Below are positions 5,687 to 53,465 of a DNA stretch of 64,000 nucleotides, one piece after another. Origin of the DNA: Bugulina stolonifera (lineage: Eukaryota > Bryozoa > Gymnolaemata > Cheilostomatida > Bugulidae); contig OW285195.1 of the NCBI GenBank assembly GCA_935421135.1, positions 15,576,158-15,640,157 of the forward strand. The letters are read 5' to 3'. Numbering within the stretch: the first letter of the stretch is position 1; each line of letters begins with the position of its first letter. A program made the translations under genes and the position numbers. The notes under the pieces were generated by a model, which worked only from the letters and a program-made list of their open reading frames with translations, was not told the DNA's origin and did no database searches.

Positions 5687-5972
5687 CACCATTGGGGCTA
5701 CATACACGTAATACATGTCGGCTACATGTAAACAGTGTATGTGATTGTACTAAAATCAGTTACGATATAAAGTCTTACTGATCCTAATTTCTTGGTAATT
5801 TGTGATACAATGGGTAGTTCTTAATTTTCCTGTGGTACGCTGTAGTTATTTCTAGCAATGCATTATGAATAAAGGATAATTATAATTGTTAACATTTTTG
5901 TTTGACATAATGAAAAGTTACAAGTAAATCAGCTGTGTTGTAGGTATGCAACTCAACAGGTAATTTCAATAC

Positions 5973-5973
<1 letters not shown>

Positions 5974-6030
<57 letters not shown>
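5974..6030. repeat. (AAT)n microsatellite
   Basis: An uninterrupted run of about 19 AAT units directly abuts the inverted repeat at the 5' side of the LINE. The same triplet recurs as a short tail (7198-7214) at the 3' side of the element. Confidence 0.95.
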
Positions 6031-6090
6031 GTATCCCCCCAGAGTATCTGAGCACAGCAACTGCTGTGCTCAGATACTCTGGGGGGATAC
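6031..6090. repeat. Perfect 29-bp inverted repeat
   Basis: Bases 6031-6059 (GTATCCCCCCAGAGTATCTG onward) are the exact reverse complement of 6062-6090, with a 2-base loop. The right arm is the start of the LINE reading frame (codons for LRYSGGI), so the left arm is an inverted copy of the element's truncated 5' end. Confidence 0.95.
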
Positions 6091-7145
6091 TAGATTGGAC
6101 GCAGGATGACTTAAAAGGCATAGACAGGAAGACACGGAAACTTATGACTATCAATAGAGCGTTGCATCCAAGAGCTAATGTGGCTAGACTGTACCTACCG
6201 AGGAATGAGGGTGGAAGAGGACTAAGATCAGCAGAAGAAACAGTGAGGACAGAGGAACATGGACTGTCGGATTACATCAGGTGTGAAGAGAAAGGATATA
6301 ATAGATTTTTGAAGAAATTGATGAAGGAGAAAACGAAAAGAGAATACCAGGACAGTCAAAGAGAAACCAGCGAGAAGGAATGGAAAGAGAAGGCACTACA
6401 CGGACAGTATACAAAAATAGCAGACAAGACAGACAGAAAGAAGACATATAAGTGGATGAAAAATGGATATATGAAAAAAGAGACCGAAGGACTGATCACA
6501 GCAGCACAAGACCAGGCATTACCAACACGATGGAGAAAAGTGAATATAGAAAAGCAATCTGGAACACCTCTGTGCAGAATGTGTAATGAAAGAAATGAAA
6601 CAGTTTTTCACATTCTAAGCGAGTGTTCTAAGATGGCTCAAACAGATTATAAAAAGAGACATGACAAGGTCGCACAATTAGTGCATTGGAATCTGTGCAG
6701 GAGATATGAACTTCCGCATGCTAAGAACTGGTATGAACATAATACAGAAAAAGTGACAGAAAATGACAAAGCAAAGATTTTGTGGGACTTCAACATTCAG
6801 ACTGATCATGCGATACAAGCCCGTAGACCAGACATCGTCGTGAAAGACAAGGATATGGACCACACGTGGATTATTGACATCGCAGTACCTGGGGATGCTA
6901 GAGTAGAAGAGAAGGAAAGAGAAAAGATTGAGAAATATCAAGATTTGGCGAGAGAGCTACAGAGACTTTGGGAAACATCTGTAAATGTGATCCCTGTTGT
7001 CGTAGGAGCACTGGGAGCAGTGATGAAGCTAGAAGAATATCTGGGGATGATTGATATACAGCGGAAGGAAGTAGACAGGATTCAATTTTCTGCTCTACTA
7101 CGAACGGCAACTATACTGAGAAAAGTGTTGGATGTCTCAGGTTAG
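6066..7145 (+). pseudogene. LINE polyprotein C-terminus (zinc knuckle plus endonuclease)
   Basis: The open frame has 359 codons but begins inside the protein: the first codon of the open stretch is GTG, within the inverted repeat. In order it shows a thumb-like segment with LYLPRNEGGRGL (residues about 42-53), a lysine-rich region, a zinc knuckle C-x2-C-x8-H-x4-C (CRMC...HILSEC, residues about 171-188), and a restriction-like endonuclease motif, PD followed after 14 residues by D (RPDIVV...WIIDIAVPGD, residues about 256-280). These last two are typical of the R2/NeSL clade. The frame has no internal stops, so the copy is probably young. It cannot be autonomous because the catalytic reverse transcriptase is missing. 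Confidence 0.85.
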
Positions 7146-22000: not shown

Positions 22001-23887
22001 ACTCAGTTACCGCAGGTACTCCTCAGTTACCGTAGGTACTCCTCAGTTACTGTAGGTACTCCTCAGTTACCGCAGGTACTCCTCAGTTACCGCAGGTACT
22101 CCTCAGTTACCGTAGGTACTACTCAGTTACCGTAGGTACTACTCTATTCTTACTCTCTAACTGCAGGTACTCTCCTATTGGCGTCTGCTTCCTAATTGCT
22201 GCTAAACTGGTGGACATTGAAGATCTGGGTGGAGTTCTCTCTAGCCTCGGTTTCTACATGCTGACAGTTCTGGTTGGGTTGGCGGTGCACGGTCTAATCG
22301 TCGTCCCCCTCATCTACTTCATTTTTGTCAGAAAGAACCCCTTCAAGTATATCTATGGAATAATTCAGGCCATGGTAACAGCATTTGCGACATCTTCGAG
22401 GTAAGTTCCACTGCAGTACAACCTGTCTTCCAACTAGCCTTGATGACCTTTCTCAAAGGTCAACACAGCCTGATATTAGTGGGATATACAATTTTTATTT
22501 AATTACTAGTATTCTTTCCAAATTCAGTTGGTCTTACAGACAGTGTGCGGGCTATATGCGTGTCACTGACGGCATTCAGAAGCTATGAGATGCTTTGTGA
22601 AGGATTTTTGCAACTGTGGGTGTTGGTAAGCATGGTGGGGCTATTTGGTTGATTCTACGACAAAATTAGCTTTTATTATTGAACATACATTACTACATAG
22701 CGCAGTTTTGTATTCAAAGCAATCTCTTTAAGAGTTTCACTGATATTTATTATTCAGTTCCGCTACGATGCCGGTAACAATGAAATGCCTAGAAGACAAC
22801 AATAAGATTGACAAAAGAGTTGTTAGTTTTGTCATTCCTGTTGGAGCTACAATCAACATGGATGGAACTGCTCTGTATGAAGCTGTCGCAGCCCTATTTA
22901 TAGCTCAACTAAATGACAGACCTCTTTCCGTTGGAGACATCATTGTCACAAGGTATTAATTTTAGATCATTGTGAATCATAGAAGTCACATTAAACATTT
23001 TTTTACATTATGAAAACAGAAAACAACATATTGTAGTCAATTTAGCTGTTGGCTGATCTATTGTATATAAAATGGTTAGAGGTGTTCTTGACACAAGTTC
23101 TTCTCTGTGCCACGTAAATTTAGTATGTAACATTCCAACATATTTGTAGCATAACAGCGACAATAGCTTCTATTGGTGCTGCTGGCGTTCCCTCAGCTGG
23201 ACTCATTACCATGATTATAGTGCTCAATGCTGTCGGCCTCCCTGATGATGATGTAGCATATATTATTGCTGTGGATTGGTTCTTGTAAGTTGTAATACAT
23301 TCCTATTGGAGGTGATGTAATGCACAATGTATACACTATATACATGTACATATAGGCCTACTAGTAATATGTACATGTACATATAGGCCTACTAGTAATA
23401 TACAGTGTACGTTTATACTGCATGCACCTCTAATCCCAAAGGTACACACTCTAGTAGACACTGCTATGGAATTACAGGCACAGTGTACCTACCTAGTCTG
23501 TTCAACTACTAACCAAATATATTTCCTGTACTATTCTAGAACTTACAGTATTCTGTTTGATCTTTCACCCTCAGAACTGTTTCATTTATTCGGCATAGTA
23601 AACAGGTAAACAAGTAAACAGGTAAACAGGTAAACTACAAGACTATTCATATCATCACTGATTATTACAGAGATAGATTCAGAACTATGATCAATGTATT
23701 GGGAGACTCCATTGGCGCTGGTATCGTCAATCACTACACAAAAGGGGAGCTGGATCCGCTAGAGGATGATCATGAGATGAGAGAACCTGAGGAGGGGATT
23801 CCAGGGGTGGATGCAGATTATCCAGAGAAGAATGGTAAAGTAAACAATGGTTTCTCGGCAGCAGTTACCACTGATACACCCATGTGA
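19016..23887 (+). CDS. Excitatory amino acid transporter, SLC1 family
   Basis: A plasma-membrane carrier predicted to import glutamate/aspartate coupled to Na+ and K+ gradients. Nine exons: 19016-19180, 19628-19808, 19906-20023, 20657-20793, 21283-21475, 22167-22400, 22758-22952, 23150-23284, 23671-23887. Phases agree and total 1575 nt, 524 residues, the usual length of the family. TM1 follows a basic, Cys-rich N-terminus. The serine-rich HP1 tip (SSS) is near 341-344, NMDGT at 376-380, the HP2 AAGVPSAG at 418-425, and [12 protein letters not shown] at 454-465. D454 binds the substrate amino group. R457 sits where acidic-substrate transporters have Arg and neutral ASCT carriers have Cys, so dicarboxylic substrates are expected. 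The start is the first ATG after an acceptor at 18985, implying a non-coding upstream exon. The C-terminus is acidic. No missing residues were noted. Confidence 0.96.
21661..22140. repeat. 20-bp minisatellite in SLC1 intron 5
   Basis: Twenty-four copies of MCTCAGTTACYGYAGGTACT end just before the acceptor of SLC1 exon 6. A run of eight variant units starting at 21721 is repeated in the same order at 21881, giving a 160-bp higher-order unit. The repeat core GCAGGTACTC matches the exon 6 splice junction (CTGCAG|GTACTC at 22161-22172). Confidence 0.96.
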
Positions 23888-25670
23888 TTCAGGAATACTC
23901 TTCAAATCATCGTGATAGTACTCAAATCACTAATCAAATATTATTTTCATAAATGAAGAATGATAAACAGTGAGTATGCAGGAAAGCAGTTAATTTTATT
24001 TTTATTTTTCAAGTTGCATTTGTATAACTGTGTCTCATTCAAGAAAACTTTAAAATATTTTATTTCTTCCTTATACCTCGGAAATAATATATAACTCTAT
24101 TCTAAACGTAAAGCTAATATTCATGTACATATAGATACTCTTTACTACTGCATTACTGCAGCATATACCTGTATGGTCTGTTGTTTACCCCTCTCCAACA
24201 ATTACCTGACTGATATTTTTGGTGTGCTTTAAACCACTTTCCATGCATTTATACTTCTTGTGCTTTTTATTAAAAATGAATAAATTGTGTATGGACTGCC
24301 CAAGGTAAGATGAATTCTCAAAACCAGGAATTCTTTTGAGCCCAAAATGTCCAAGTGAGCAAAACTACGTTCATTTTAGGAATAGGGTTTGAGAATACAA
24401 TGTGGTATGTCCATCCTAAAGTTTATTTTAGGTCAATATTTGACCTATACAATTTATTTTACAGTTTACACTACAGCTGCAGTTCATGTTGGGTAGCATC
24501 ATCAGGAATTAGCAGTTACTAAATAATATTATACTATCATGTATGTAGTTGTTGGTGTTTGGGGTAAGAGGAGACAACTTCCAAAATCAAGAGAAGACAA
24601 CTCTCATTTAGTGGTCCCCCATAAAACTGTTGAGGTCCTAAATAGCTGCTAGACTAGCATGCAGAAATAAATTGATTTTGATTGGTCAGCAGAACACCAA
24701 TAGTGATAGCAGATTTGTACACAATCTTGCACTACTTCTCCTCTGTCACATCATAGTCTAAGCCTATATGCAGTATGACTTGTCAGGTTCAGCACTTGTA
24801 GTAAAGACTTCTCCAATTCTGCACAATGTCAAGGACACAAGCACCTGACAGCTTGTGTAATACATGCAATACAAGGAAATAGTCGATTGTTATAAAAGCC
24901 TATCTATTGAAGTGTACATTGTTCTGGAATATAATAGCAATGAATGCAAGCTTATTGTATTGGCTTTGATCCAATAATTGGAAGTTTCACTCTAGCAATG
25001 AAACTGCTAACTACAACAACTAGTTTTACTATTCAGAGCATAGGATACTAAACTGCTGGTATGGAGACTGAGTCAGCTCTGAGTTAAGTTCTATCAAGTA
25101 GTTGAGTAAGTATAATGTGTAAATAAGTATGGTGAAATGCTGTGACACTTGCAATCCACCTGGCCAGGTGAGATGTAGGTAGTCTAGGACCTAGTCTCTA
25201 GGTCATTATTCTAGACTTTCAGTTGCACAGAACCACAGACTATTTCAAAACTGTGAAAGTATTGAATACCTGTTTACATGCGTATATAGATTCTATATTG
25301 TAGAATTATTTGGCAGGCTCCACAAAACATAGTTACCTACACTGTCACATGCATTCCGATTATTGGATGCGCTGATTTATAATCTGTATTATATATGTAT
25401 ATACATGATGTACATGTGTGTTATGTTGCATTATTAACATGACAATGTGTACAAAAATCCAAACAATATTCAAGAATGAAAAAAGATTTAAAATTGCTTT
25501 CCTAATGCCAAATAACAGATTTGAGTGTAGTACAAACAAACTGCTGTGCATACCTAATACATGTATGAATTATTCATTTGTATCAGTTTTTTCAGTTCCC
25601 ATGGTCTCTCTTTTAGTCTTTAGAGAAAGAAGTTGTCGACTGTATAAGCGCTTCACTTCCTGCAGCACAG
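23888..25670. other. Intergenic, SLC1 to ankyrin-caspase gene
   Basis: AT-rich; AATAAA-like sequences occur around 24280, downstream of SLC1, and could serve its 3' end. Paired GGAGACAACTTCC / GAGAAGACAACTC motifs lie near 24570-24605. I found no coding exon. Confidence 0.5.
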
Positions 25671-28600
25671 ATGGCGGAGCTGTTCCTGGCTGCTAACAGG
25701 GAAGAAGCAGAAAATTTTATCAAATCTCTGCCAGCAGATAAAGTTCAAGAACAGCTACTAATCATCCATGTAGAGAGCGAAGAAGAAGTGAGGGGGTGGA
25801 CAGCACTGCATGAAGCTTCTAGAGAGGGAAAAACTGAAGTTGTAAAGTACTTGTGTAGCATAGCCTCACCACCAGAAGAATTAATTTTTGCACAAGACAA
25901 AGATGGAATGACTGCTATGAACTATGCTCAAAATGTTGAGATAGCTCAAGCCTTGGTTGAATCCGTTGATCCCTTGCGGCAGTCTGACTTCCTGTCTGCT
26001 ACAAACAATCAGCAGCAAACAGCATTCCACACTTTGGCTAGTTTGGATTCACCCGATGCGTTGAATTTCTTATCCAGGAAATATTTTCAAGATGAAAGAC
26101 ATTTGTTCCAAACGGATTCCTACGGAAGAACCCCACTCCATTACTGCAAAAGCAAAGCTACTGCTCAATTGTTCCTTGAACTGTTAGAGCCAGCAAACAG
26201 GAGAGATTTGATCCAATCTGTAGACAATGATGGGTGTACAGTACTACATATTTCCACCAAACACAAGTTGGCAAGTTCGAATCTAATTGGTTATCTTTGT
26301 TCATTAGAATCGCTTGGAGATGAACTCTCATTGGTGAAAGATAAAAAAGGGAGAACAGCCCTACATTATGCCCAAACAATGGAAACAGCAAAAACAATAA
26401 TAAAGAGTGTCAGTAAAATAGTTGCCAAAAGACTTGTACTTTCAACTGACCAAGAAGGTTATAGTGCATTGCATGTTATGGTTTCGAATGAATCGAGTGA
26501 GGATTTAGTCAAGTACATGTGCCTCGAAACTAGTTTTGGTGATGAATTGGCATTGTTAAGCTGTCAACAAGGTAGAACGGCATTACATCATGCAAAGCGG
26601 AAATCTACTGCACAGATTTTAGTTGAGTCAGTTTCACCAGCTAAAAGACCAAAACTTCTATGGACAAAAGATAAAGAAGAATTTATGCCATTGCATATGT
26701 GTGTCAGCGAAGGACATACTGATGTGGTGAAATTCTTATGTGAGAGTGAAGTCTTCTCGATCAAACTTTTACAACAGCAAACCAAGTTTCTTGGAACTCC
26801 ACTGCACTACGTCGACTCCAAGAAGATGGCGGAGATACTTCTTGAACCTCTAGAACCTTCTCTGCGTCGCGACCTGCTGATGATGGTCAACGAAGACGGC
26901 GAGACTCTGCTTCACTTGGCAGTGCTTGCTAATCACGTGGAACTAATCGAATATCTATGTCACATTGCTGATGAAAATCTACTCTGGACACAGAACAACA
27001 ATGGATGTACTGCATTATTTTTTGCAAAGAGTCAAGACGTAGCAGAGCAACTTGTTAACTCGGTTCAAGACCAAGAGAGATTTCTGCTAATCAAGGACGA
27101 AGGTAATGAAACTGCTCTTTTTTCGGCAATTGAGGACAGCCTGCTGGAAGTAGTTCAATATCTGTGTAGCTTTTCAGACATTTTGAGTGAGCTTTTATAT
27201 ACAATAGATGAGTTTGGTAGGACACCCCTGCACTTGGCTGAGACATCAGAAGTAGCACAGGTAATCATCGAAGCTCTACCTCCAGATAATAGAAGGGAAT
27301 ATATATTAAGCGTTGATGAGGATCAGCATACAATTCTACACGTTGCCGCAGGGAAAGGTTCAAATGATTTGGTTGAGTATTTATGCCTGTCAGATGACAC
27401 AGATGAAGAACTAATCTTGGCTAAAGATGATACCAGAAATACTGCAATGTTCTACCCAGACAATGCCGAAGTTCTTAAGTTCATGGTTGAAGCTTTAGAC
27501 GTTGACCAAATGCCAGATATTCTCACTTATCAAGATTTAGATGGCAATTCAATCTTGCTGTCTATTGTCAGGCTAGGAAGAGTTGATGCCGTTTCATATT
27601 TTCTGCAATTCGTTGAAGATGAACTTGACCAGGACGTTTTGGAGCACTGTTTGGGAATGAAGAACAAATGTGACCAGAATGTCTTTCACCTTGCAGCCAT
27701 ATCTCTAGCTTTCGCTGACACATATAAAGTGCTTCAAGACTACATTCATTGCGTGGACATGGAAGCTATGATGTCATCAGATGCTTATAATAACACGCCA
27801 ATGCACTATGTCGCTGCTAAGTATGCTACCACCATATTTGCTGACTTCATTCTTCATTTGCCGTTGTCGCTACGCCGGCAGTTTGTTTCGCTTAAAAATA
27901 CAAGTCAAACCAACTGCACAGATATCGTAAAAACAACATTTTTCTCTAAGAAATTTTTTCTCAGATCGGTTTTGTGCGAGTCTGATAAAATGCTTTCTTA
28001 TGAAGAAAAGTTCGATGAGTACAATCGCTTCAAATCTGGCAACTACAAGGAAATTTTAGAGGTACCCGAGGCACACATTAACTACGATGAGAATATTCTG
28101 CGTGTTCTAAAGTATGCGCTGAATGAATATTCCCTGCTTGACTCCGCCTATACTATTTCCCATACCTTATTCTCCTTGGCTGCAAGACTACGAGATGGTA
28201 CAAAGAAAGAATCATTAGTAAGTGCTAGATCTCAAAATGAATACTTTATCATTAATGCAAAAATGATTCTAGGCTTCATCAGCTTCTGTAGCATTCACGA
28301 TGGGAGACACTGCACCAGTTACATGTGTTGTGTTAGCACATACAATCCATTGTTCATTCTGCGTTTAGCCATTACTTATTTGTATCCACATCGCTTCAGG
28401 TTAAGAATCTGTCCGATGCCTTGTGCTTGTTCATAAACTATGATGAACTGGAGGAAGATGACCAGCTGCAATGTAAAATAAATAACATGGACACACATGC
28501 ATACCACGGAAAGCCCAAGGTAAACAAATATAATCAATCTTAATAGGTCATCACTGCTGTCAACAAGGTCAGTCAACAAGGTCAAGGTGTCATCTCTGCC

Positions 28601-33399: not shown

Positions 33400-34550
33400 G
33401 TCAGTCTTGGCGCAGTTTGGATTTGAACCCACAGCCTCTGTATTGAGAGCTGAGCATTCTACCAACTGGGCCACTCTGACACCCTTGAAAGTAGAGTGTG
33501 GTATTTTCATGTGTTACTTATTAGCCAGCATACTGGCACTAATATAAAACACTCAAAACAATTTAGAATGCCACCAGACCTGGCTCAGTTGGGATTTGAA
33601 CCCACAGCCTCTGGATTGAGAGCTGAGCGTTCTACCAACTGGGCCACTCTGACACCCTGGAAAATAAGGTGTGGTATTTTCATGTGTTACTTATTAGCAA
33701 GCATAATGACACAAATATAAAACACTCAAAACAATTTAGAATGCCACCAGACCTGGCGCAGTTTGGATTTGAACCCACAGCCTCTGTATTGAGAGCTGAG
33801 CATTCTACCAACTGGGCCACTCTGACACCCTTGAAAGTAGAGTGTGGTATTTTCATCTGTTACTTATTAGCAAACATAATGACATAAATATAAAACACTC
33901 AAAACTATTTAGAATGCCGCCAGACCTGGCACAGTTGGGAGTTGAACCCACAGCCTCTGTATTGAGAGCTGAGCATTCTACCAACTGGGCCACTCTGACA
34001 CCCTTGAAAGTAGAGTGTGGTATTTTCATGTGTTACTTATTAGCCAGCATACTGGCACTAATATAAAACACTCAAAACAATTTAGAATGCCACCAGACCT
34101 GGCTCAGTTGGGATTTGAACCCACAGCCTCTGGATTGAGAGCTGAGCGTTCTACCAACTGGGCCACTCTGACACCCTGGAAAATAAGGTGTGGTATTTTC
34201 ATGTGTTACTTATTAGCAAGCATAATGACACAAATATAAAACACTCAAAACAATTAAGAATGCCACCAGACCTGGCGCAGTTTGGATTTGAACCCACAGC
34301 CTCTGTATTGAGAGCTGAGCATTCTACCAACTGGGCCACTCTGACACCCTTGAAAGTAGAGTGTGGTATTTTCATCTGTTACTTATTAGCAAACATAATG
34401 ACATAAATATAAAACACTCAAAACTATTTAGAATGCCGCCAGACCTGGCACAGTTGGGAGTTGAACCCACAGGCTCCACATTGAGAGCTGAGAATTCTAC
34501 CAACTGGTACACTCCGACACCCTTGAAAGTGTAGTTTAATATTTTGATGC
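33400..34550 (-). mobile_element. Tandem array of tRNA-derived SINE units
   Basis: Seven units with a 173-bp period. On the minus strand each unit reads like a tRNA: an A-box region around GTGGCCCAGTTGGTAGAA, then a B-box GGGTTCAAATCCC. The remaining 95 bp or so is a constant body. The second and fifth, and the third and sixth units match almost perfectly, so the array grew by a three-unit (519-bp) duplication. The plus-strand open frames of 72-74 codons in each unit are antisense to the tRNA region and are not genes. The last unit (from 34432) is diverged. Confidence 0.85.
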
Positions 34551-35189
34551 TTTAGTTATTAGCTCAAGAACCAGTTATAAAATAATAGAAACGGAATAAC
34601 TAACTAATAAACCCAATCCAAGATAGCACCAGAATAGGTGTAGTTGGCAAGTCTCTATATACATTGTATATACATGTATTGGTGAGCTAATCAGCCAGGA
34701 GACAGAGGATTTGAGTAACAAACTTGTATTTCATAGTAATCTAATAATAGTATACAATTGAGTAACATAATGTGTTATATGGAGACTTAAAATCATTTTA
34801 TAAAATGAAAACATAATACAATGTATGTGTTTATGCCCCGCCCCCTCCTCCTCCCCTTCCCCCCAATAATACAACATAATTGATCTAGAGGTATGACAAC
34901 TCCAACCACACTGTAATATTTGTCTGTACGGCATGGTGCACATTCACCAATGTCTGCAGTATGTATGTATGTATACAGATTACACTATAGGACACTGATA
35001 ATTAGAAAGTTCCTTATTCTTATTCAGTATATAGAGCAGAATACGCTTTTTAAGACATCTACTAACAGTACAGGTACAGTTTATATAGGACATGTAGGAT
35101 ATAGTACCTGTACACATGATACATGTATACACATACAGTGTATAGTAGATATACTGCATACTCTCTGTTATACAAGACTAGATATACAG
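34551..35189. other. Intergenic spacer
   Basis: AT-rich with TACATGTA and (TATG)n motifs, and a C-rich stretch at 34835-34863. No gene seen. Confidence 0.5.
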
Positions 35190-40090: not shown

Positions 40091-42995
40091 TTATTCAGCT
40101 ACTTCAGGTAAGGTAGACTGTTCCCCTATAGAGCTCTTCCTGTATTCTACCAAGTTATACAAAGATTCAGTGAATCCTTTGCCCACCGCACCACTTTCTG
40201 TGACACTTTCTGAAGTTGGGCCATCCTCTCTCTGAGTGACCACTTGCAGGACTTCATCCTCGTCTGCCAGTGACGCACTGAAGGTATTAGAAGGTCTCTC
40301 TATAGGTAAGTATTTCCTGTTACTCCCATGAACAGACTGGACATTACCTGATGTTGATGCTGCCCCTGCAGCTGCTCCTGCAGTTGCCCCTGTGGTTGCC
40401 CCTGTGGAACCTCGCCTGTAATCAGAAAACAAGTTTATGTGAACTTATCTCCTCAACAGTATCTGATACAAGAATGCGCATGTACAACTACTTCCTGTTT
40501 AGTAACACCTACGTACTTTGAATGGAGGCAGAAAGTAATACAAATTTACTATTACTACCTTGCAGGTTACAAGTATATGCTTTATTTCTGCTTCCTACGA
40601 TTCCTACTACTTACGTAGGTAGTTTGAGAACTTCTCCTCTATGACCAGAACTCTGTGTGAAGGTTGTGTCTTCGTCCCCTAAAAGTGTGACAGAAAATCT
40701 AAGTGTAAAGCAACAGCCTATACAGGGACTATCCATAAATTGACAACAATAATATGTGTACCACGCAATTCCTTAACCTATTGATCATGATTGTTGATTT
40801 CTATTTTGAAAAAATGTGTAGGAGAAAAGACATTACATTACAATTTATAGCTTACGACAGTGTAGTAATGTATTCAGTGACTGTAGCCACATTGTCTGCT
40901 ATTCAATATATCTTCTACATAATATTTTGTAGGTCAAAATTGCATTATTTAATAAACAAAGCTAATGCATTCTGTCTGAGAAAACAGCAGATTTCCATGG
41001 CTGATTTAATTCTAAACAGAGCAGTACAAAACATACACAAAACGCTGCATCAACAGCATATGATTTGTACCAACAATAAGTTTGATGCTGTAAAGTCTTA
41101 GAGTAGCAGTTTGGTGAAGTGTTGCATATAATGTTAGAGAGATTTAAGTTTGTAACCTACCTAGTATGGTGCTTAGTCTGATTCCAGAGACACGTCGCCT
41201 GGTTGGTGTGTTACCACTATCTGCGAGCACCGCTCTTCCTGTAAATGTTTCTCTCGTCCTTCCTGTCTCTATATTGTGTGCAGCCACCCTAGAGCCCCTA
41301 GCCCTCCACACACCCCAGACAACTACCACCATTACCAAAATTGAACCGACAGCTCCCCCACCCACTCCTACTTGTTGTTGAATTGACATAGTACAGGAAA
41401 TGCCTCTACATTGCTCTTCGTCGGTTGCATCGTCACCTACAGCACAGATATTTAATTTGTCTCTCAGCTATGAATGCCTTATTTGATTGTATCTTTGATA
41501 AAACCTGGGAGACTAGTATGATGCTCATGCATAGGCTGACACTACTCTGTTTAGGAGAGTTTGGTGAAGCGCAAAAATGTTGTGAATTTATTGGAGCTGG
41601 CATAAAACGCTCGATCCTATTCAACTTTCTAAGCTGTGGTAAAAACCCAGAGTATACACTTAACCAAGTGAGTTGAAACAGTTGACATTAAGTGTGAAGG
41701 TTCTCTAACAGTATGGTTCACAACTCCCCACTGCGAGCATGGGCTACATTGATATCTATGATTATATAGGTTTCGATTCTTACCAGATTCCTCGCCGACA
41801 TCATTGTCTTTCTCTCTACCATTGTCACTGCCACATTGTCGGGAATACAGACTGCTGTTGTATGGAACAGTTGTGTTGCCACAGTCTATAACATTGCTTC
41901 CATTATTCAACTTGGAAGCATTCTGCATGCCAGCGATGTCACTAACACTATTGTTGGTCAAATTTAGCGTATCCACTTTTGCCAATCTGAAGCACATTTA
42001 CAATGGACGATGTTTTTAAAACAAATAACACTGAATGTGGTGCAGACTTTTAAATTACTATTTCTCTCTAAATTCAATGGCTTCTAGTCACTATGTACAT
42101 GTATGTACATGTAGAATAATTTTTTAAGTACTGCATAATAATAATGATAATGTGAATAATTAACATACATTATTTTCTATTTAAAACTTTGGAATATTAG
42201 TGTTAAAGTAAATAGTGAGGTATAACATAACATGATCGCTAAATATAAAACACAGTGGAGCTCACTTAGAAGATGAATCTCTCCTCCGTCGACTGTTTGT
42301 GCCGAACAGAACTTTTGCTCTACACCATTCCTAAAATGGACAATACTATTAGCATAATTTAGTTGCGAAGCATCAGGAATCCTATTAATATATTGCTGTA
42401 AAAGTTATTTTAACATGAACATGTCACAGCCTGTGTTGTTTAAACGAAGGGGGCAATCAACAAGATGGCTGAGTCACATGTGCAATGTGCATGTTCTAGT
42501 ACAAAAGATAAATACGTTCACATATCTGACAGCATCACTCACCATGCCGTACTCTGAAGGAGAGTTATCAGTTGAGATTTGGTACAAGTCTCTGCGTTTC
42601 TTCATGTTCTTCAGTTTGAATTCTACAGTCATAACATTCACTTTGTTGGATGTATAGTACTTCTATAGTCATATCATGTAACTATAAAGTCTCCACAGTT
42701 TCACTGAATTAATTTAACCAGGGATTTACCATGCTAGTACCGAGAAGATACAAACAGATATGCATTTACTAAGCAATGTAATACTTAAACAGTTATATAA
42801 CCTAGCATACTTTAGTTGTCCGTGCAGGTATATATAACCTAGTTGCCAGCAGTACTGCATCAATACCAGCGTGTATAATATTACATTATTAAATTAAAAC
42901 AACATATCAGACCAACCTTGTCCAGACTTCTCAAAACAGTAGCAGTAACACAGAACAACTGCCAATAAGACGAATATTCTACAAACATTCGACAT
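40091..42995 (-). CDS. Paralogue A: small type I membrane protein
   Basis: Seven exons in transcript order: 42917-42995, 42543-42622, 42266-42330, 41784-41986, 41161-41436, 40615-40678, 40091-40415. Phases 1,0,2,1,1,2; 1092 nt, 363 residues. A signal peptide (VCRIFVLLAVVLCYCYC) is followed by KNMKKRRDLYQI and EWC (C56), then a furin-type site RRRRD (67-71) and an N-glycosylation-rich segment with LNLTNNS. One membrane segment spans about 165-186 (GGGAVGSILVMVVVVWG) with WRARGSR as stop-transfer. The cytoplasmic tail is longer than in B and C and contains a Gly/Ala/Thr repeat encoded from 40415, an acidic DEDEVLQVV block and YNLVEY, a possible endocytic YxxPhi motif. It lacks the paired cysteines of B and C in exon 2. 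No known family recognised. Confidence 0.85.
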
Positions 42996-43326
42996 CGTGA
43001 TTAAAATTCCTTACACAACCTTTCTTCAAGACTATTGTATTCATAAAATTTTTAAAATTTGATAAAAGTGTACACCTTCTACTGGTAGGTTTGAAGTACT
43101 ACTGCCTTCAATACAGTAGCTGAGGATCTCCCAGCCTAGCTAGAAAGTAGCTTGATTTTAACAACCAAAGTGCCTTTTGGCTTTGACTTTCACAGCTGAC
43201 TTCTCCGAGGCTATCTACTCTATGATAGCTGTTTTGAATTTCAAAATAAGTCTCCATCGATAACAATTTAAAGTTGTCTTACCTTTGAACTGGAATAAAC
43301 CAACATTACAGGTTGCACTATTGCAT

Positions 43327-43500
43327 CTCTACAGACTTCATGACATCACTACAGACTTTATGACATCATTACATACTTCATGACACCATTACAGACTTTA
43401 TGACATTACTACAGACTTTATGACATCACTACATACTTCATGACACCATTACAGACTTTATGACATTACTACAGACTTTATGACATCACTACAGACCATA
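43327..43500. repeat. 20-bp minisatellite upstream of gene A
   Basis: Eight to nine copies of ACTACAGACTTTATGACATC with C/T variants, about 330 bp upstream of the gene A start codon. Confidence 0.92.
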
Positions 43501-44124
43501 TGGTAGCGCTATAACTGTATTTATTATATAAAAGACAGACTGTACAAGTTCATCATGTCTATGTCACCTTTTCGCCAATCAAATTGATGCTCCATTTCGT
43601 GTCTCTCTATTGCTGTGCTCTTCTAGTCTAGTCACTGCAGTTGCCGTTCTTCAATCCACAGTCCTTTACTCCTGCATATTATGTTCCAGCTTAGGAAAGA
43701 AGTCCTTTAATTAAATATGCTTTCAATTCAAGGGGACTAGGGGTGAAATTTATTTAAGACAAAGTACCGAGTTTAGCGCATGTGAAACCAAATCTGTAAT
43801 ATCTGAATGGTGGAGCCAATGGTAGCCTAAGTCTCTATGTTGTACATGTACACATAGGAAACTTAGGCTACATTTAGGTACATGGGTACATGTACATGCT
43901 GCTAGTGAGCTGTGTAGTATTATTCAGAAGTTAATGTATGAAGAAGTTGTCTTCCCTTCTCTTGCACATGTCACCTGACCTGATTCATTAATTATTGACA
44001 GTCAGTAGGAATTTAAAGGCACCTTCCCTGATTGCTACATTTTATGACATGAGTCCTTTCAAGTTAATGCTACTAGTGAAAAGTTGTTGTTACAACAATA
44101 ATGTTGTAATTAGAATACAGAATG

Positions 44125-44468
44125 GTATAATGTACTTTTAGCAAGGAATTTATCTTTGAGCAGTCAGAGACTTGTTTCAAATCCATGAAAATACCAGTCC
44201 CTGACTGGGGTTTGAACCCGGGGCCTCTAGGGCACCTAATCGGCTAGCACAGTGAACAGAACACGCTACCACTGCACCAGCTAAGCAACCAGTGGTAGCA
44301 TGTTCTGTTCACTGTGCTAGGCGATTAGGTGCCGTAGAGGCCCGGGTTCAAACCCCAGTCAGGGACCGGTATTTTCATGGATTTGAAACAAGTCTCTGAC
44401 TGCTCAAAGATAAATTCCTTGCTAAAAATACATTATACCATATATAGAAAATGGCCAAACCCCCTAAC
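44125..44468. mobile_element. Head-to-head tRNA-SINE pair with 13-bp target duplication
   Basis: Two copies of a tRNA-derived SINE face each other: a minus copy (44140-44290, B-box read as GGGTTCAAACCCC) and a plus copy (44290-44425). The pair forms a large near-palindrome starting TTTTAGCAAGGAATTTA and ending TAAATTCCTTGCTAAAAA. The flanks are the direct repeat AGAATACAGAATG (44112-44124 and 44469-44481). The duplicated region next to gene C has a single AGAATACAGAATG (49733-49745) and no insert, so the insertion followed the B/C duplication. Confidence 0.9.
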
Positions 44469-44822
44469 AGAATACAGAATGTTCATGGCATAGAGTTAAC
44501 TCCATAGCTCAAACTTATTGTCTAGAGCACTTGTTTGCACTGTGAGTAATCCCCATGTCCTGTTTGTTCTAGGCTATACCACAGTCTACATTTACAACTA
44601 TTAAGAAAACAGGCACTTCATAGTTTTTCAAGTATCTATGCTGTATTTTCAGGATAAAAAATATTTACATTCAGTGGATTATGATATATTTACACTCAAA
44701 CTCACATTGTACATCTAGTTAGACTATAATGATACAGACAGTTGAACAGCAGCACATATGGCATGCATTGTACATGTACAATGTACATTGTACATGTAAT
44801 ATAAAGTCACAGTTTTGTATTG

Positions 44823-47800
44823 CTAAAGTATGAAGTCATTAGTTGCTTCTGGATCCCTTATAAATGTGACATTGTGCTCTGAACTTGAGGTGATGCTTTC
44901 TGCAGTACTTGCTGCAGAGGTTGTCACTTCTGTAGGCTGTACTGCAAGTATTTCATCTTCTCCACTAGTGGCTCCTGAATCTGTGTTCTCCCTCTGGCTG
45001 CAATGAGATGTCATATGTTAGACAACCCAAATTGAACAGAGCAACAGACCTGCACATGTGTGTGTGGGTGAATGAGTAAATAGATAATTATATACATCTA
45101 AGTAGAGCCTTGTGCAATTCTCGCTGTCTCTGGCAGCTTGAGAACTCTGGCTCAGTGTATTTCACACCTTTTAAATGCTCTAAGTATATAGTATTGCCTA
45201 GGTGTGCTCCTAGGCACATTATCCCTGAGCTGCACTGATGAAGGTGTCAAACACCGAAACAGTACTGTATGCAGATTGAGTACATGCAAGTACATGTATT
45301 TGCTACAGAACTACATGTATCTCCAAGCACGCAGTAAACTAGCATGCAGCCAAACAGTACTAATCGAGTTCTACTATGTGAGTATGTATAATTGTAGGCC
45401 TATTACAAGAGAATGCATACCACCGGTAATACACGGTTACAAGCTATAAATCTGTGAGGATTTACTATGACTTACATGGGCATTTGGGGTTGTCCTCCCT
45501 GAGCAACATCCCCTTCATTTCCTACACCATAGAACAACAGGATGAGCAAAATGAAATAACATACATAAATTCTCTAAATGAATTTTAATACAAAGAGGCT
45601 TTTTCATGTACAACTAGCAAATGTGCATGCATAATTTATGACAATGCATATATAGCAAGCATATACATGTCGTGATGTATTTTTAGCAAGGAATTTATTT
45701 TGAGCAGTCAGAGACTTGTTTCAAATCTATGAAAATACCAGTCCCTGACTGGGGTTTGAACCCGGGGCCTCTACGGCACCTATTCGCCTAGCACAGTGAA
45801 CAGAACATCCTACCACTACACCAGCTCAGCAACCATAAAAAAGGAAGCTTCACCAGTGAGCAGTAGACATGCTCTGAGCGAACTGCACATGAGGCACCCC
45901 TCTTATTATGGCCACCTTGCTCCTTATATGATGTTAAGGGGTTTGGCCATGTTTTCAAATATATATGATGTATGAGCTGGTGTAGTGGTAGCATGTTCTG
46001 TTCACTGTGCTAGGCGATTAGGTGCCGTAGAGGCCCCGAGCTCAAACCCCAGTCAGGGACTGGTATTTTCATGGATTTGAAACAAGTCTCTGACTGCTCA
46101 AAAATAAATTCCTTGCTAAAAATACGTCACATATATTATTAAAAAAATGGCCAGAACCCCTTAACATATACACGTAGTATAGTACATTAGTGGCATGCAC
46201 TAATAAATGCGCCTAACACGTTGGGTAGCTGTGGTTAACAGCTACATCTGCATATGAATAAAATTGTGAAAATCTATTAAAAAGTTAACCAACATAAATA
46301 ATATTTTTACCATTGTAACTGCAACATGAATTACTTATTGTTTATATAAATATTTAGCCTCAGAACCAATGAAACTCAAATTTGACTGCGGATTGACTCT
46401 TGTTCATTAAAACCAGCAGCAATACATGCAGCATATCATTGGGAGCAGTAACTTGGCCTGTGATTACATCGATCATCCCAAATGACTTTAGCAAGTGACA
46501 GCACCTTAATTCTATTAAAACCGACGCCATTGTCTTGCATTTCATTTAAATGGTCTTGCAGAAAACTGGCATGACAACAACAAAGGCAAGAGTCTAGCAG
46601 CTTTGGTAGCAGTCATGTCAATTTCAATTGTTCCCAAAGTTTGTTAAAATAATGCTTGTTTCAAATTAAATAAAATACACAAAAGCTAGCACCCCAATGT
46701 GGAGCCTCGACACAATTCACGACCAGCAGTCATCTTTATCAATGAGGTGTTCATAATCTGATCTTCAGAAGTACATTGAATATAATGTTTATGATGAAGA
46801 AACATACTTAAGAGGTCTCTGTATCTAGCAGCTAGAATTTGTGCTCTATCCACTGCACCTCCACCTCCCATTCGTCTGGCTCTTCGTTTCTTCAATACAT
46901 AAACACAGGCTCCAATCAGGCCAATCACCAGGAGAGCAAGTGGAACACCTATTTCAATTCCAAGGAATCTCTTGCTTTCATGTTTAGCTGCAACAAGAGA
47001 TTTTTGTGTTATCATTGCATGGCAGTAACCATCAGGTAAAGCATCGTTTGTAAAAGAATGTTAGATCCTGTAATGACATGAGTGGATAAAGGTACAATGT
47101 ATAGTTAAATTACACTCACGACTTTCATAACGGTGTATAATATTCTTCGATTTTTTTCCATCATGATTATCAGGCTTTTTGCCATTTGTGCGTCCCGATT
47201 CTTCGCTACTGGATTCTTTCTCGTCACTGCTTCCACATGCTCCTGATAGGCGACTACTGTTACTACATTCCTCTACGCTACTATCGTTGTCTTGTTGTGT
47301 AACACTTTCAACGTCGAGAGTGCTGTTGTTGACCAAGTTCAGGGCCTCAACTTCTGGTAAACTGAAAAGGTTTGATAATAAAAAAGTAATGAATAAAGTG
47401 AAAGTAATGAATAAAGTGAAAGTAATGAACAAAGTGAAAGTAATGAACAAAGTGAAAGTAATGAACAAAGTGAAAGTAATGAACAAAGTGAAAGTAATGA
47501 ACAAAGAGAAAGTAATGAACAAAGAGAAAGTAATGAATAAAGTGAAAGTAATGAACAAAGTGAAAGTAATGAACAAAGTGAAAGTAATGAACAAAGTGAA
47601 AGTAATGAATAAAGTGAAAGTAATGAATAAAGTGAAAGTAATGAATAGAGTGAAAGTAATGAATAAAGTGAAAGTAATGAATAAAGTGAAAGTAATGAAT
47701 AAAGTGAAAGTAATGAGCAAAGTGAAAGTAATGAATAAAGTGAAAATAATGAATAAAGTGAAAGTAATGGATAAAGTGAAAGTAATGAATAAAGTGAAAG

Positions 47801-48972
47801 TAATGGATAAAGTGAAAGTAATGAATAAAGTGAAAGTAATGGATAAGGTGAAAGTAATGAATAAAGTGAAAGTAAGGATTAAGAAGCACTGCAGAGATGT
47901 CACTAGTCACATTAACATTAATATGGAACTGGACAAGTGGTCAGTGGTCTATCACTAGCAGCTACTAGCCATCAACTTCCAAGCACTTGTTTAAAAATTT
48001 GTGGATTTTTGAGGTTGAGTAACTCATTATTAGCAGTGGTCGAGAGGGGAGGGGGGTCATACTAAATACATTACACTACAGTTATTTATAGCTGAAAGCA
48101 TTACTAATGAGCCTGCATAGAGTAAGTGCACTGACCAATAGCGTTGTTGGAAACATTCTAGAGAATACAATTAAAACCACTTGGTAGAGTTCAGGGACTG
48201 GTTAGCTGCTGGAGGTGGAGCCTCTTTCAATTGCTTTGCATGGACTATAAATTCACAGCCTACTGTATGTTGAATGATAATGTCAAACCTGTGTTCTGAG
48301 GGCAGCAGAAAGTGTACACTATATTATTTTAGTGCATTTACACATAACTAACCTTGTTGTGACGTCTCTCTTTTGGCGAATGTTTGAGTTGAACAGAGTT
48401 TGAGCTTGGCACCATTCCAGAAACTAGCAATAAGATTAGTTAAAAAAGATTAGTTTTTATTTTTGTTACTATCAGAAGTGATTCCAACATGTAACAGATG
48501 AGAAAGTGAGGAACCTGCATTGGAAGAATTCGATAAAAACAGGAAGTTAGAGATTGAAGACTTTCCTTACCAAGTTGTACTCTGAGGGATATTTTCGGAG
48601 GTAAAGCTGAAAGCAGAGCTTCTTCCAGAGCTGGTATAAGTCTCTGCACTCTTTCAAGTTTTTTACCTCAACTTCTACTGGAATATAAACATGTTTCATG
48701 GTTTCCCAAGGAAACGATTGAGTGTAGTAAATCTACTTCAGCAATGAAACCAAAGTAGCTGTTCATTTTATGTTGGCAGAATCAAGCCTTGTAACAGTAT
48801 TTTTAAGCAAGAGAGAGAGAGTCATGTATCATTGACACAGAGTTGGAAAAGCAGTTAATCAAACCATACAGTGTACAAAACTTGGCTTACCCTGCACAGT
48901 ATTCTTGGAGCAGTAACAGCAGCACCAAAACGCTATCACTACAGCTATAAGTATCTTAGTGACATCTGCCAT
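44823..48972 (-). CDS. Paralogue B: small type I membrane protein
   Basis: Seven exons in transcript order: 48891-48972, 48571-48677, 48353-48423, 47120-47361, 46808-46987, 45476-45521, 44823-44997; phases as in A and C; 903 nt, 300 residues. Signal peptide MADVTKILIAVVIAFWCCCY; ectodomain CRDLYQLWKKLC (two Cys), EWC (C68), furin-type site RQKRD (79-83); then an acidic Ser/Asn segment with further Cys (EECSNSS, GACGSS); membrane helix about 178-198 followed by KKRRARRMG; tail QRENTDSGATSGEDEIL. DSGATS fits the DSGxxS phosphodegron pattern. Exon 3 begins at an acceptor 6 nt upstream of the one used in C, because the C-like AG reads TG here. Function unknown; a surface receptor or processed precursor is inferred. 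Confidence 0.87.
45678..46165. mobile_element. Second inverted tRNA-SINE pair in intron 5 of gene B
   Basis: A minus copy (45678-45834) and a plus copy (45974-46165) of the same SINE as at 44125 are separated by about 140 bp. That spacer contains GTTAAGGGGTTTGGCCAT, the reverse complement of the element's 3' tail (AATGGCCAGAACCCCTTAAC at 46146-46165), so a further partial copy lies between them. CATATACA occurs on both sides and may be the target duplication. The corresponding intron of gene C lacks the insert. Confidence 0.8.
47378..47876. repeat. 18-bp minisatellite in gene B intron 3
   Basis: About 27 copies of GTAATGAATAAAGTGAAA, with AAC/AAT, GGA and GAG variants, directly upstream (in transcript sense) of exon 4. 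Being a multiple of three, it keeps frames open on both strands for up to 280 codons; these are not genes. Gene C has only about one copy at the same place (51927-51950). Confidence 0.96.
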
Positions 48973-49470
48973 GTTGGTTTAAATACTTAGTTAGACTATT
49001 TTACAGTGTTGAACTCTCTAAAACTTTAAAAATTGGATTAAAAAGGATCGACCTTCCCCTTGATGGTTCAAAGGCAATACTGACTTTTAGGATGGCAGGT
49101 GAGAAATATACTGTGTGCCTAACGAAGCTATCTTAGCTAGATGCTAGCTCTTAGTATGCTCTTTGGTCTCGGCTGTAAGCTTTACTGTGCTTTATTGCTT
49201 GCTTGTAGAGTAGATCCCTAGCATTACACATTAACCTATTTTCCAATTCTAAAAAGTTCCATGTGGTAGCATTTGGTGCTAAATTTTAGTTTATATCAAT
49301 TGTACTGAAAAATATTTTTGTATAATATAGTAATTATTGTATGCCAATTATTTCAGAAAAATGCACTTTCTCCAATAAAAATAGACGTACATGATTGTAC
49401 ATGATTGTACATGTACATACAATACATGTAATGTAATTTAGTGCAGCGCTAAATGTATATGTACAGCTAC
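48973..49470. promoter_or_regulatory. 5' flank of gene B, conserved with gene C
   Basis: About 370 bp upstream of the B start codon (to about 49340) is closely similar to 53466-53840 upstream of C, for example GATGGTTCAAAGGCAATACT and TTAGCTAGATGCTAGCTCTT. It marks the edge of the duplicated block and should contain the promoter. No TATA box is obvious. Confidence 0.5.
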
Positions 49471-50154
49471 ACATAGAGAACATAGGCTACATGTAGGTAC
49501 ATGGGTACATGTACATGCTGCTAGTGAGCTGTGTAGGACTATTCAAAAGTTAATGTATGAAGAAATTGTCTTCTCTTCTCTTGCACATGTCACCTGACCT
49601 GATTCATTCATTATTGACAGTCATTAGGAATAAAGGCACCTTCCCTGACTGCTACATTTTCTGCCACTGAGTCCTTTTAAGTTAATACTATTAGCGAAAA
49701 GTTATTGTTACAACAATAATGTTGGCATAATTAGAATACAGAATGTTCATGGCATAGAGGCATGTACCTCCATAGCTAAAATTTATTGTCTAGAGCATGT
49801 GTTTGCACTGTGAGCAATCCCCATGTCCTGTTTGTCAAGACTAGACCACAGTCTGCATTACTGGTGTCTAAATTTGGGCAAGGCAAAATCCTCACTTCCC
49901 CAGTCAAGCATTTTATAGTTTTTCAAGTATCTATGCTGTATTTTTAGGATAAAAAATAATTTCATGCAGTGGATTATGGTATATTTACACTCAAACTCAC
50001 ATTGTACATCTAGTAGGACTATAATGATACAGACAGTTGAACAGCAGCACATATGGCATGCATTGTACATGTACAATGTACATTGTACATGTAATATAAA
50101 GTCACAGCTGGGTTCTGCTAAAACATGGGGAGTCATTCGTTGCTCCTGAATCCC

Positions 50155-53100
50155 TTATAAACTGGATGTGATACTTTCTGAAGTGCTAGCATCAGCTGAG
50201 GTTGTCATTTCTGTAGGCTGTGCTGGAAGTACATGTATTTCATCTTCCCCACTAGTGGTTCCCGAATCAGTGTTCTCTCTCTGGCTGCAATGAGATATCA
50301 CATGCTACACAACCCAAACTAAAAGGAGCTACAGACCTGCACCGTGTTTGTGTGGAGGAATGAGCAAATGGATGTATAAGTATATGCATACATCTACAGA
50401 ACTGTCTCTAAGCAAGCAGCAAACAGTAATTAACTAATAAAGCTTTACCAGGCATATGAGCATATATACATTGTAGTGGAAATGTAGGCCTATTACAATA
50501 AAGTGCATGCCACTGGTAATACAGGGTTATAAGCTATAAATCTGAGAGAATTAGCTATGACTTACATAGGCCTTTGGATTTGTCTCTCCTGAGCAACATC
50601 CCCTTCATTTCCTACAACATAGAACAACAGGCTAATAAGCTGGATGAGTATCATGAATTAACTTACAAAAAATATTTACATATAAATACTGTTTAATACA
50701 GAGAGGGGTTGTTCATGTACAACTAGCAAGTGCACATGTATAGTTTAGATACTCTGTAGCTGTACTTGCTGCATTGGTAGTACATTGCATTAGTGGCATA
50801 CACTAGCAAAATGCACCACCTAACATGTACATGCAGATCGACTCTTGCTCCTTAAAACCAACAGCAATACGTATATAACATATTATTAGAAGCAGCAGCT
50901 TGGTCTGTGATTACATTGATTAAACTAGAAGCAGCACCCTGATTCTATTTAAACCGACACCATTGTCTTGTAGCTCACCTAAATGGCCATGCAGAAAATT
51001 GAACAAATGCTGCAGCTGCGGTGGCAGCAGCAGCCATTAAATGCTTGTTGGCTTGACAACACTCAAGAGTCTAGCAGTTTTGGTAGCAGTCACTTCACTT
51101 TCAGAGTTTACCAAAGTTTGCTTGTTTGAAATTGAATAAAATACACTAAGGCTAGCACACCAATCATTTAACTGGAGGTAAAAAGGAACTTCAATACAGT
51201 TTACAAACAGCAGTCATCTTTATCAATGAAGTGTTCATAATCTGATCTTCAGAAGTACATCGAATATAATGTTTATGATGAAGAAACATACTTAAGAGGT
51301 CTCTGAATCTAGCAGCTGGAATTTGTGCTCTGTCCCCTGCTCCTCTTGCTCCCGCAATTTCTCCTCCCCCCATTTGTCTGGCTCTGTATTTCTTTGATGC
51401 ATAGTAACCTACACCAACCAGTGCCACCAGGAGGACAATGGCAACGGCTACTTTAATTCCATTAATAAGTCTCTCGTTTCCAGGTTTTGCTGCAACAACG
51501 AATCCTTGTGTTATCATTGCATGGCAGTAATCCATGTGATTGTGTTACCATAGCCGCTGAAACTCCAATTGTATATTGTATAAGGAGTGGAATGGGTCTT
51601 ACTACAGCAGTAACCATCAGGTAAAGCGCTTGTGAAAGAATGAAGGAATTAAGGTGCAATGCATATAGTTAAATCATACTTACGACTTTCATAATGGTCT
51701 ATAATATCATTCGAGTTTTTTCTATTTTTATTGCCAGGCTTTTTGTCATCTGCGTCTCCCGATTTCTCGTCACTGCTTTTACACCCCCCAGTAGAGCGAC
51801 TGCTGTTGTCACACTCCTCGGCACTGCTATCATTGCCTTGCTGTGTAACACTTTCAATACTGAGAGTGTTGTTGTTGATCAAATCTAGGGCCTCGATTTC
51901 TGGCAAACTGAAAGGATTTGATAGAAAAATAATGAATAAAGTGAAAATAAGGGGCTGCAGAAATGCCACCAGCCACCTTTAGCAATCAGTAGAAAAACAA
52001 ACCATAAAATTAATGTGGAAGTACAGTGTAGAGTAACAAGAGAACGTGTGGAAAATAGCAACAAGCCAACCCACAAGTAGAAAACAGGTGCTTCTACATT
52101 AACTATTGATCTATAATAATATTGTAGTTGACACATGGTCTATCACTAGCAGCTACTGGCCATCAACTTCCAAGCACTTGTTTAAACATTTGTGAATTTT
52201 GGAGGTTTAGTTACTCAATACTACCAGGAGTTAGAGGTCCCGGGTCGGCACTAAATGCCTTACATTGCATTTATTTATAGCTGAAAGTGTTACTAATGGG
52301 CCTGCATTGAGTAAGTAAACCGACCAATAGCAATGTTAGAAATATATAATAGAGAATATAATTAAATAAGTTTGTAGAGTTTAGGGATGGGCTAGCTGCC
52401 AAAGGTTGAGCCTCCTGCAATTGCTTCTATGGACTATAAATGAGATCAGGACAAAGTGTAAACTATAATTATTATCCTAGTGCTAACAGCACATTTACAC
52501 ATAACTAACCTTTCTGTTGCATCTCTCTTTTGGCGAATGTTCGAGTTGAACAGAGTTTGGCACCATTCCTGAAACTAGCAATTAAATTAGTTTGTATTTG
52601 TATTGCATCAGAATTGGTTTTCCTTATTGGAAATTCCAACATGTAAGAGATCTTGAAGATGATGAAAGTAATAAACACAAAATAAAAGATGGCAATAAAA
52701 CAATCAAAACAGCCGTGGCTTAGGGGTTAGAATGCTGAGCGTTCATGCTGAAGGTTCCAGGTTCGAATCCCAGTCATGGTGGTGTTAGGAAGAGCATCTA
52801 GCCACAATTGCTCCTGTGCCTCAATAGTCATTGAGGCCATGCAAAGCATGGCTTCAAGGCAACTCTTTTACCTCTGCCGAAAACATGTCATGTCATCTGG
52901 GCCTTTTCTCACAGGGAGTTAACCAGCACTGGCACGTGGCAGTGCAAGCTGTTAGGGGCTGGTCATGCCGAGGAGTATAAGCCGGCGAGTTTTTTCAATA
53001 AAACAAGAAAAACAGAAGGTTAGAAATTTTAAATTCTCCTTACCATGTTGTACTCTGAGGGAGATCCTTTGAGGTAAACCTGAAAGCAGAGCTTCTTCCA

Positions 53101-53465
53101 GAGCTGGTATAAGTCTCTGCACTCCTTGAAGTCTTTCACCTTAACTTCTACAGGAATATAAACATGTTTCATGGTTTCACAAGGGAACGATTGACTGTAG
53201 TACATTTACTTCAGCCATAAATTGGACAGAATGTAATTGATGAACTTACAGTGGAGTTTATGATATTTTAGGTTTGAATCAAACCCTAGAACAATATTTT
53301 CAAGCAAGAGAAGGTAATGTGTTATGGATACAGAGTTGGAAGGGCAGATAATCATACCATACAGCACACTGCACTTGACTTACCTTTCACTGCATTCTTG
53401 GAGAAGTGCCAGTAGCAGCAAAACACTATCACTATGGCTATAAGTATCTTAGTGACATTTGCCAT
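50155..53465 (-). CDS. Paralogue C: small type I membrane protein
   Basis: Seven exons in transcript order: 53384-53465, 53044-53147, 52510-52568, 51684-51907, 51292-51489, 50566-50611, 50155-50284; phases 1,0,2,1,1,2; 843 nt, 280 residues. Same plan as B: signal peptide (VTKILIAIVIVFCCYW), CRDLYQLWKKLC, EWC (C65), furin-type RQKRD (74-78), acidic Cys-containing segment with EIEALDLINNNTL, membrane helix about 167-187, basic KKYRAR, tail with DSGTTSGEDE. Against B, a 19-nt deletion in the last exon shifts the frame so that TAA follows SITSSL. The B-like terminal residues remain as untranslated sequence downstream. Intron 2 holds a SINE absent from B. Confidence 0.87.
52711..53006 (+). mobile_element. 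tRNA-derived SINE in intron 2 of gene C
   Basis: A tRNA-like head (CCGTGGCTTAGGGGTTAGAA as A-box region, CCAGGTTCGAATCCC as B-box) is followed by a body with GAGGCCATGCAAAGCATGG and an A-rich tail. Flanking CAATAAAACAA at 52693-52703 and 52996-53006 looks like an 11-bp target duplication. It belongs to a different SINE family from those at 33400 and 44125. It is transcribed antisense to gene C. Confidence 0.85.

Follow-up and report, generated by a model that had tools for sequence, protein, structure and literature searches.

Three genes, here designated A, B and C, lie in tandem on the minus strand of the window, the whole 64,000-nucleotide stretch of DNA that was analyzed, which is very probably located on chromosome 9 of Bugulina stolonifera. 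The gene models were assembled manually from GT-AG sites in the DNA. Each consists of seven exons, and all three reading frames are intact. Gene A (40091 to 42995; exons 42917-42995, 42543-42622, 42266-42330, 41784-41986, 41161-41436, 40615-40678, and 40091-40415) encodes a protein of 363 amino acids (aa). Gene B (44823 to 48972; exons 48891-48972, 48571-48677, 48353-48423, 47120-47361, 46808-46987, 45476-45521, and 44823-44997) encodes 300 aa, and gene C (50155 to 53465; exons 53384-53465, 53044-53147, 52510-52568, 51684-51907, 51292-51489, 50566-50611, and 50155-50284) encodes 280 aa. These models exactly reproduce the outer coordinates, 40091 and 53465, given by an earlier examination of the letters alone (hereafter, the sequence-only reading) and bear out its description of seven exons with identical phases. 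The intron phases are 1, 0, 2, 1, 1, and 2 in A, B and C alike, an agreement expected by chance in ∼0.2% of pairs of unrelated genes under assumed phase frequencies of 0.45, 0.30, and 0.25. In the protein alignment, the introns preceding exons 4 and 6 occupy one common column in all three genes. Those preceding exons 2 and 3 coincide in A and C and are shifted by one and two columns in B, and those preceding exons 5 and 7 coincide in B and C, with A displaced by 25 and 38 columns in a region of gaps and uncertain alignment. B has TG at the exon 3 acceptor where C has AG; B seems to use an AG located six bases upstream, which adds Phe-Leu ahead of the EWC motif described below.

The three proteins share one layout: a hydrophobic, signal-like N terminus, an EWC motif, a furin-type site, a sequon-rich stalk, a single transmembrane (TM) helix, and a tail. 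Hydropathy, the sole basis for this part of the description, identifies one hydrophobic N-terminal segment and one TM segment per protein and thus agrees in all three cases with the proposed signal peptide and single TM helix with a basic stop. By the same measure, all three have the composition of a type I single-pass protein, that is, a signal sequence and one internal TM segment followed by basic residues. The TM helix cores, with coordinates placed by hand, are residues 167-185 of A (41309 to 41365, minus strand; mean hydropathy, 2.2), 180-198 of B (46896 to 46952, minus strand; 2.5), and 165-183 of C (51410 to 51466, minus strand; 2.5). The EWC motif is encoded at the start of exon 3 in A (42322 to 42330) and C (52560 to 52568) and at 48409 to 48417 in B, all on the minus strand. 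C-terminal to it, in the lumenal part, each protein carries the furin substrate pattern R-X-[KR]-R followed by D, in the same alignment columns. The site, again placed by hand, reads RRRR|D in exon 3 of A (42280 to 42291, minus strand) and RQKR|D in exon 3 of B (48367 to 48378, minus strand) and C (52524 to 52535, minus strand); the EWC motif and dibasic cleavage site of the sequence-only reading are present in all three proteins.

The stalk contains six sequons in A, four (two of them overlapping) in B, and three in C. With the end of the signal peptide estimated, and with the bar marking the furin site, the mature cysteines are 56 | 110, 126, 152, 157 in A; 38, 49, 68 | 119, 129, plus one in the TM segment, in B; and 37, 48, 65 | 114, 124 in C. 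According to the alignment, three of these are common to the trio, namely, that of the EWC motif and two in the stalk. Exon 2 of B (48571 to 48677, minus strand), which belongs to the N-terminal chain, carries Cys38 and Cys49, neither of which is found in A. When this exon was modeled alone as a single sequence, without relatives, residues 2-28 were predicted to form a helix (mean pLDDT, 91). The tails, which had been described as acidic and Ser/Thr rich, are basic first and then Ser/Thr rich and acidic; their overall acidity is weak, with D+E versus K+R counts of 21/20 in A, 15/12 in B, and 14/12 in C. The tails of A (YLPI and YNLV) and B (YRDL) contain candidate endocytosis motifs, but none is common to all three, C having FRDL in place of the YRDL of B. 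The C tail is also ∼18 residues shorter than that of B.

That these genes form a tandem family of three was confirmed by profile comparison. Alignment of A with B/C by hhalign yields a probability of 99.1 and an E value of 1.9e-18 over 132 columns (42% identity) that span the signal peptide, the N-terminal chain, the furin site, and the stalk. Judging from this alignment, A is a true homologue of B and C, even though no DNA similarity between A and B/C is detected at an E value of 0.01 and the overall protein identity of A and B is 33%. The homology signal is distributed unevenly over the exons. The Smith-Waterman scores of A-B exons 2, 3, and 4 were reached by 0 of 2,000 shuffles, that of exon 1 was reached by 2 of 2,000, and those of exon 7 were reached by 45 of 2,000 (A-B) and 2 of 2,000 (C-A). 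Exons 5 and 6 of A and B give no such signal (675 and 1,267 of 2,000 shuffles), and two mismatched-exon controls were reached by 1,078 and 1,326 of 2,000. Conservation between A and B is lowest in the TM/juxtamembrane part, at 6 of 39 aligned residues, and the TM segment and membrane-proximal tail of A cannot be aligned with those of B/C. The proposed strong divergence of the tail between A and B/C accordingly applies to this part but not to exon 7, in which A retains an NTxS...EDE motif and SES residues.

The B and C proteins are 71% identical, and their long aligned DNA pieces, introns and flanks included, are 70 to 83% identical. This level of difference implies tandem duplicates and not two haplotypes; haplotype duplication and an assembly artifact were both rejected because the sequences are too different. 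By this comparison, B and C are the younger tandem duplicate within the trio. In the 5' flank, 381 of 427 aligned bases are identical, and the similarity rises toward the 5' end; the corresponding values for introns 1 and 2 are 0.78 and 0.64. The 5' similarity may come from gene conversion or from conserved regulation, although introns 1 and 2 fit neither neatly. Intron 3 of B contains an 18-bp tandem repeat of 27 copies (47383 to 47875) that adjoins exon 4 and is open in several frames and so can mimic coding sequence.

Searches for relatives outside the trio placed it in no known family, as the sequence-only reading had stated, with the protein databases, Pfam, NCBIfam, PDB, and a profile search all included. 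Among 5.8 billion proteins, B yielded 1,564 candidates and the three-member profile yielded 7,996 top word-sharing candidates that were scored, with no match in either case at E values up to 10. At the same limit, Pfam returned only weak matches below the cutoff (three for B, none for A, and six for C), and no immunoglobulin-like, sushi, or other recognition domain was among them for any of the three proteins. PDB sequences gave no match to B and six to the profile, the best at an E value of 0.098. Two Pfam matches found for B only, TMEM154 (13.2 bits versus a cutoff of 30.3; residues 167-206) and Psg1 (14.8 versus 30.1 bits; residues 153-206), lie around the TM segment. ETRAMP, a family of small membrane proteins of Plasmodium (malarial according to Pfam), matched C in Pfam with an E value of 0.58 and 10.6 bits versus a cutoff of 29.1, with none listed for A or B, and matched one of the three members in NCBIfam with an E value of 0.0024. 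This likeness is weak and confined to the charged pre-TM stretch and TM segment of C, and the NCBIfam match is read as composition. The weak Pfam, NCBIfam, and PDB matches (Psg1, TMEM154, DUFs, a plant Cys-rich domain, ETRAMP, ARR1, RING2, and an uncharacterized chain) were all judged compositional.

A rather unlikely explanation of these results is that A, B and C are fast-evolving members of a described family of cytokines, growth factors, or receptors whose sequence similarity has been lost. The short N-terminal part, helical in the model of B exon 2, would suit such an origin, and distant folds escape the sequence searches that were run; conversely, nothing exceeded the Pfam cutoffs, the best PDB match had an E value of 0.098, and the protein searches returned nothing. 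The reach of the protein search was gauged with a positive control, a 939-aa open frame of ankyrin repeats located elsewhere in the window (25617 to 28436, plus strand), which retrieved 448 proteins among 7,990 scored. The eight best were metagenome proteins with 31 to 38% identity, and named animal proteins ranked lower; the database therefore holds animal proteins. The 120 control matches listed include no bryozoan names, so that the control does not demonstrate a bryozoan proteome in the database, and genes of many short exons are easily overlooked in contigs annotated without splicing. "Orphan" is thus used here in the sense of not found by the searches run, and in this sense A, B and C appear to be an orphan family of processed surface glycoproteins that is possibly lineage restricted.

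Within the genome (234,951,659 bases in 27 contigs, the window being on contig 9 of 16,362,498 bases), searches for further copies recovered only pieces of the trio, with 11 matches for B, 7 for A, 6 for the N-terminal half of B, and 4 for that of A. The sensitivity of these searches is such that B misses A at E values up to 1 and A misses B and C at E values up to 10; the N-terminal half of A alone reaches B (E value, 0.47). A tblastn search of 264 kb around the locus produced 37 matches, of which a single one beyond the gene cluster (25 residues; E value, 0.40) was taken as chance. The accessible portions of the literature on bryozoan allorecognition, on fusion and the genome of Bugula stolonifera, and on furin-processed lineage-specific proteins contain no description of the family. 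A relatively high share of the B. stolonifera transcriptome is unannotated according to the part of the work of Treibergs and Giribet available to us, in which thin bryozoan sampling is blamed for many unannotated transcripts (PMC7534450). Predicted B. stolonifera proteins have been deposited on Dryad, as stated in the accessible text of a further paper (PMC13326412).

To characterize the selection acting on the younger pair, the Nei-Gojobori method with a bootstrap interval was applied to 270 aligned B-C codons. The resulting dN of 0.160 and dS of 0.416 give a dN/dS of 0.38 (bootstrap interval, 0.27 to 0.55), at odds with the diversifying selection previously expected for these genes. By protein part, dN/dS is 1.20 in the signal peptide (with 2 silent changes only), 0.48 in the N-terminal chain, 0.30 in the ectodomain beyond the furin site, 0.82 in the TM/juxtamembrane part, and 0.21 in the tail. 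The exon-wise comparison of B and C, which had been put forward as a check, gives 0.83, 0.73, 0.28, 0.32, 0.56, 0.62, and 0.11 for exons 1 to 7; none exceeds 1, and the minimum falls in the last tail exon. In no part or exon, the signal peptide included, is dN/dS demonstrably above 1. In exon 7, 6 of 89 replacement sites have changed versus 12 of 28 silent sites (Fisher P = 2.9e-5). Silent change is lower in exons 1 to 3 than in exons 4 to 7 (8.5 of 47.1 versus 46.9 of 126.2 sites; P = 0.011, calculated from rounded counts), so that dN/dS in the first three exons rests on little; the value of 0.73 for exon 2, for example, rests on 2.5 silent changes. Part of the tail is also unconstrained, as C lacks the last 18 residues and the YXXphi motif of the B tail. 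As measured by these ratios, B and C are under purifying selection overall, a statement that concerns paralogues and is compatible with allelic diversification.

This result bears on the idea that A, B and C are polymorphic self/non-self recognition molecules involved in bryozoan allorecognition. The allorecognition proteins of Hydractinia (Alr) and Botryllus contain immunoglobulin-like or other domains, are polymorphic, and are encoded by clustered genes in colonial animals. The trio resembles them in being clustered genes for single-pass surface proteins in a colonial animal, and the tandem arrangement, the apparent lack of relatives, and the far-diverged A would all fit a recognition role. 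Unlike them, however, A, B and C match no immunoglobulin-like, sushi, or similar family in Pfam, and the selection between B and C is purifying, the only value above 1 being that of the signal peptide; moreover, genome searches of limited reach recovered only three copies. We consider this explanation very unlikely. Still less probable, in our view, is the more ambitious proposal that the trio gives the first molecular access to bryozoan self/non-self recognition or zooid communication, in the form of a cut two-chain protein whose fold has no counterpart elsewhere, A and B/C acting as alternative partners or as ligand and receptor. As for Alr1, the portions of the Bugula neritina genome paper available to us report no more than weak similarities (PMC7576161).

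The reading that we prefer, with a probability of roughly 0.5, is that A, B and C are a family of furin-processed, two-chain type I membrane glycoproteins with a putative receptor or adhesion role. The signal peptide would direct the chain to the endoplasmic reticulum, the stalk would be N-glycosylated, and a furin-like protease would cut the protein in the late Golgi. The cut would yield a helical N-terminal chain of ∼50 residues and a glycosylated membrane stub, to which the N-terminal chain may be held by a disulfide between the EWC cysteine and a stalk cysteine. The two-chain product would serve as a receptor or adhesion molecule, and its cytoplasmic tail would do trafficking or signaling work, which could explain why constraint between B and C is strongest there. 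Among the observations that speak for this reading, the furin consensus with its following D is kept in three of three proteins despite the 33% identity of A and B, and all three frames are intact though the DNA of B and C differs by 17 to 30%. Cys38 and Cys49 of B are both present in C and both missing from A and are probably paired with each other by a disulfide. The cysteines common to the trio are odd in number, so that one of the three would be free or would link two molecules.

The main rival is that the trio encodes membrane-anchored precursors, from which furin would free the ∼50-residue helical chain as a secreted peptide ligand, with the stalk, TM segment, and tail being a sorting or retention device. 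Three observations would suit a released ligand: A and B resemble each other most in the N-terminal chain (23 of 45 aligned residues), the single-sequence model makes exon 2 of B a helix, and the chain terminates at the furin site. On the other hand, the tail is the part most constrained between B and C, with its motif partly retained in A, and two stalk cysteines are common to all three proteins. We regard release as somewhat unlikely and favor the EWC-stalk bridge because the tail is so constrained; retention of the chain by this disulfide is argued from three sequences and is possible.

Known systems provide partial parallels for both readings. Furin-processed two-chain type I receptors, for example Notch with its S1 cleavage, have an ectodomain RX[KR]R site, one TM segment, and a cytoplasmic tail. 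The trio shares these features, together with a signal peptide, but its proteins are far smaller than Notch and contain no EGF, LNR, or other described domain according to Pfam. KITLG and CSF1 are membrane-anchored helical cytokines of type I topology whose helical N-terminal part is released or retained. A, B and C are similar in topology and in the modeled helical N-terminal part, and they differ in having only ∼50 residues before the cut, a furin site near the N terminus, and no Pfam match. Lineage-restricted surface proteins are a common, poorly understood class. In this context, the trio is a tractable orphan family: it is compact, has a clear processing site and conserved cysteines, and is constrained in its tail, and its cleavage, chain retention, and zooid-type expression are directly testable; by themselves, these genes neither overturn nor settle a known question.

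A possible short-tail form is suggested by intron 5 of B and C. The start of this intron is conserved between B (46701 to 46807, minus strand) and its counterpart in C (51185 to 51291, minus strand), with 91% identity over 107 nucleotides, and is open in frame. Spanning the boundary of exon 5 and intron 5, a stretch of 84 columns is identical at 82 positions and ranks among the best conserved B/C DNA. Reading in frame into intron 5 would replace the tail by 28 residues shared by B and C, with one difference, followed by differing ends, and this read-through is a possible alternative short tail. A has no such extension, its frame stopping a few codons into intron 5. Because stretches of the B-C flanks are equally conserved (84 of 84 in the 3' flank and 81 of 84 in the 5' flank), conserved regulation is an equally good reading. 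A genome search with the 107 intron 5 bases found two places, those in B and C, the tool being uninformative on rarity. tRNA-derived, SINE-like elements, repeated and partly inverted, were recognized by eye at ∼44190-44420, 45680-45830, and 45975-46130, and two of the three sit in intron 5 of B.

The remainder of the window contains unrelated features. A tandem repeat of ∼90 copies of a 38-bp unit with strong GC skew occupies its start (2 to 3435), followed by a 393-aa frame (5964 to 7145, plus strand) with a weak, sub-cutoff zf-RVT match (E value, 0.00026) that is perhaps a retroelement remnant, and by an exon of a sodium:dicarboxylate symporter (22036 to 22404, plus strand; Pfam SDF E value, 3.6e-15). 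A 173-bp unit repeated 6.7 times (33408 to 34563) has a consensus that resembles a tRNA by eye; Rfam, run at gathering scores, reports nothing in the window. Beyond the window, two frames 37 to 43 kb past its end (L032 and L033) resemble, by eye, fucolectin- and SUEL-type lectin domains. Finally, the COX1 gene of the assembly, on contig 27, follows invertebrate mitochondrial code 5, reading ATA as Met and AGR as Ser, on which basis a demosponge origin was rejected. A second, very different COX1, which we take from its look to be of ciliate type, lies on contig 26 (34375 to 36051), with a related sequence near one end of contig 12 (7199 to 8926), and probably represents a cobiont or a contaminant.
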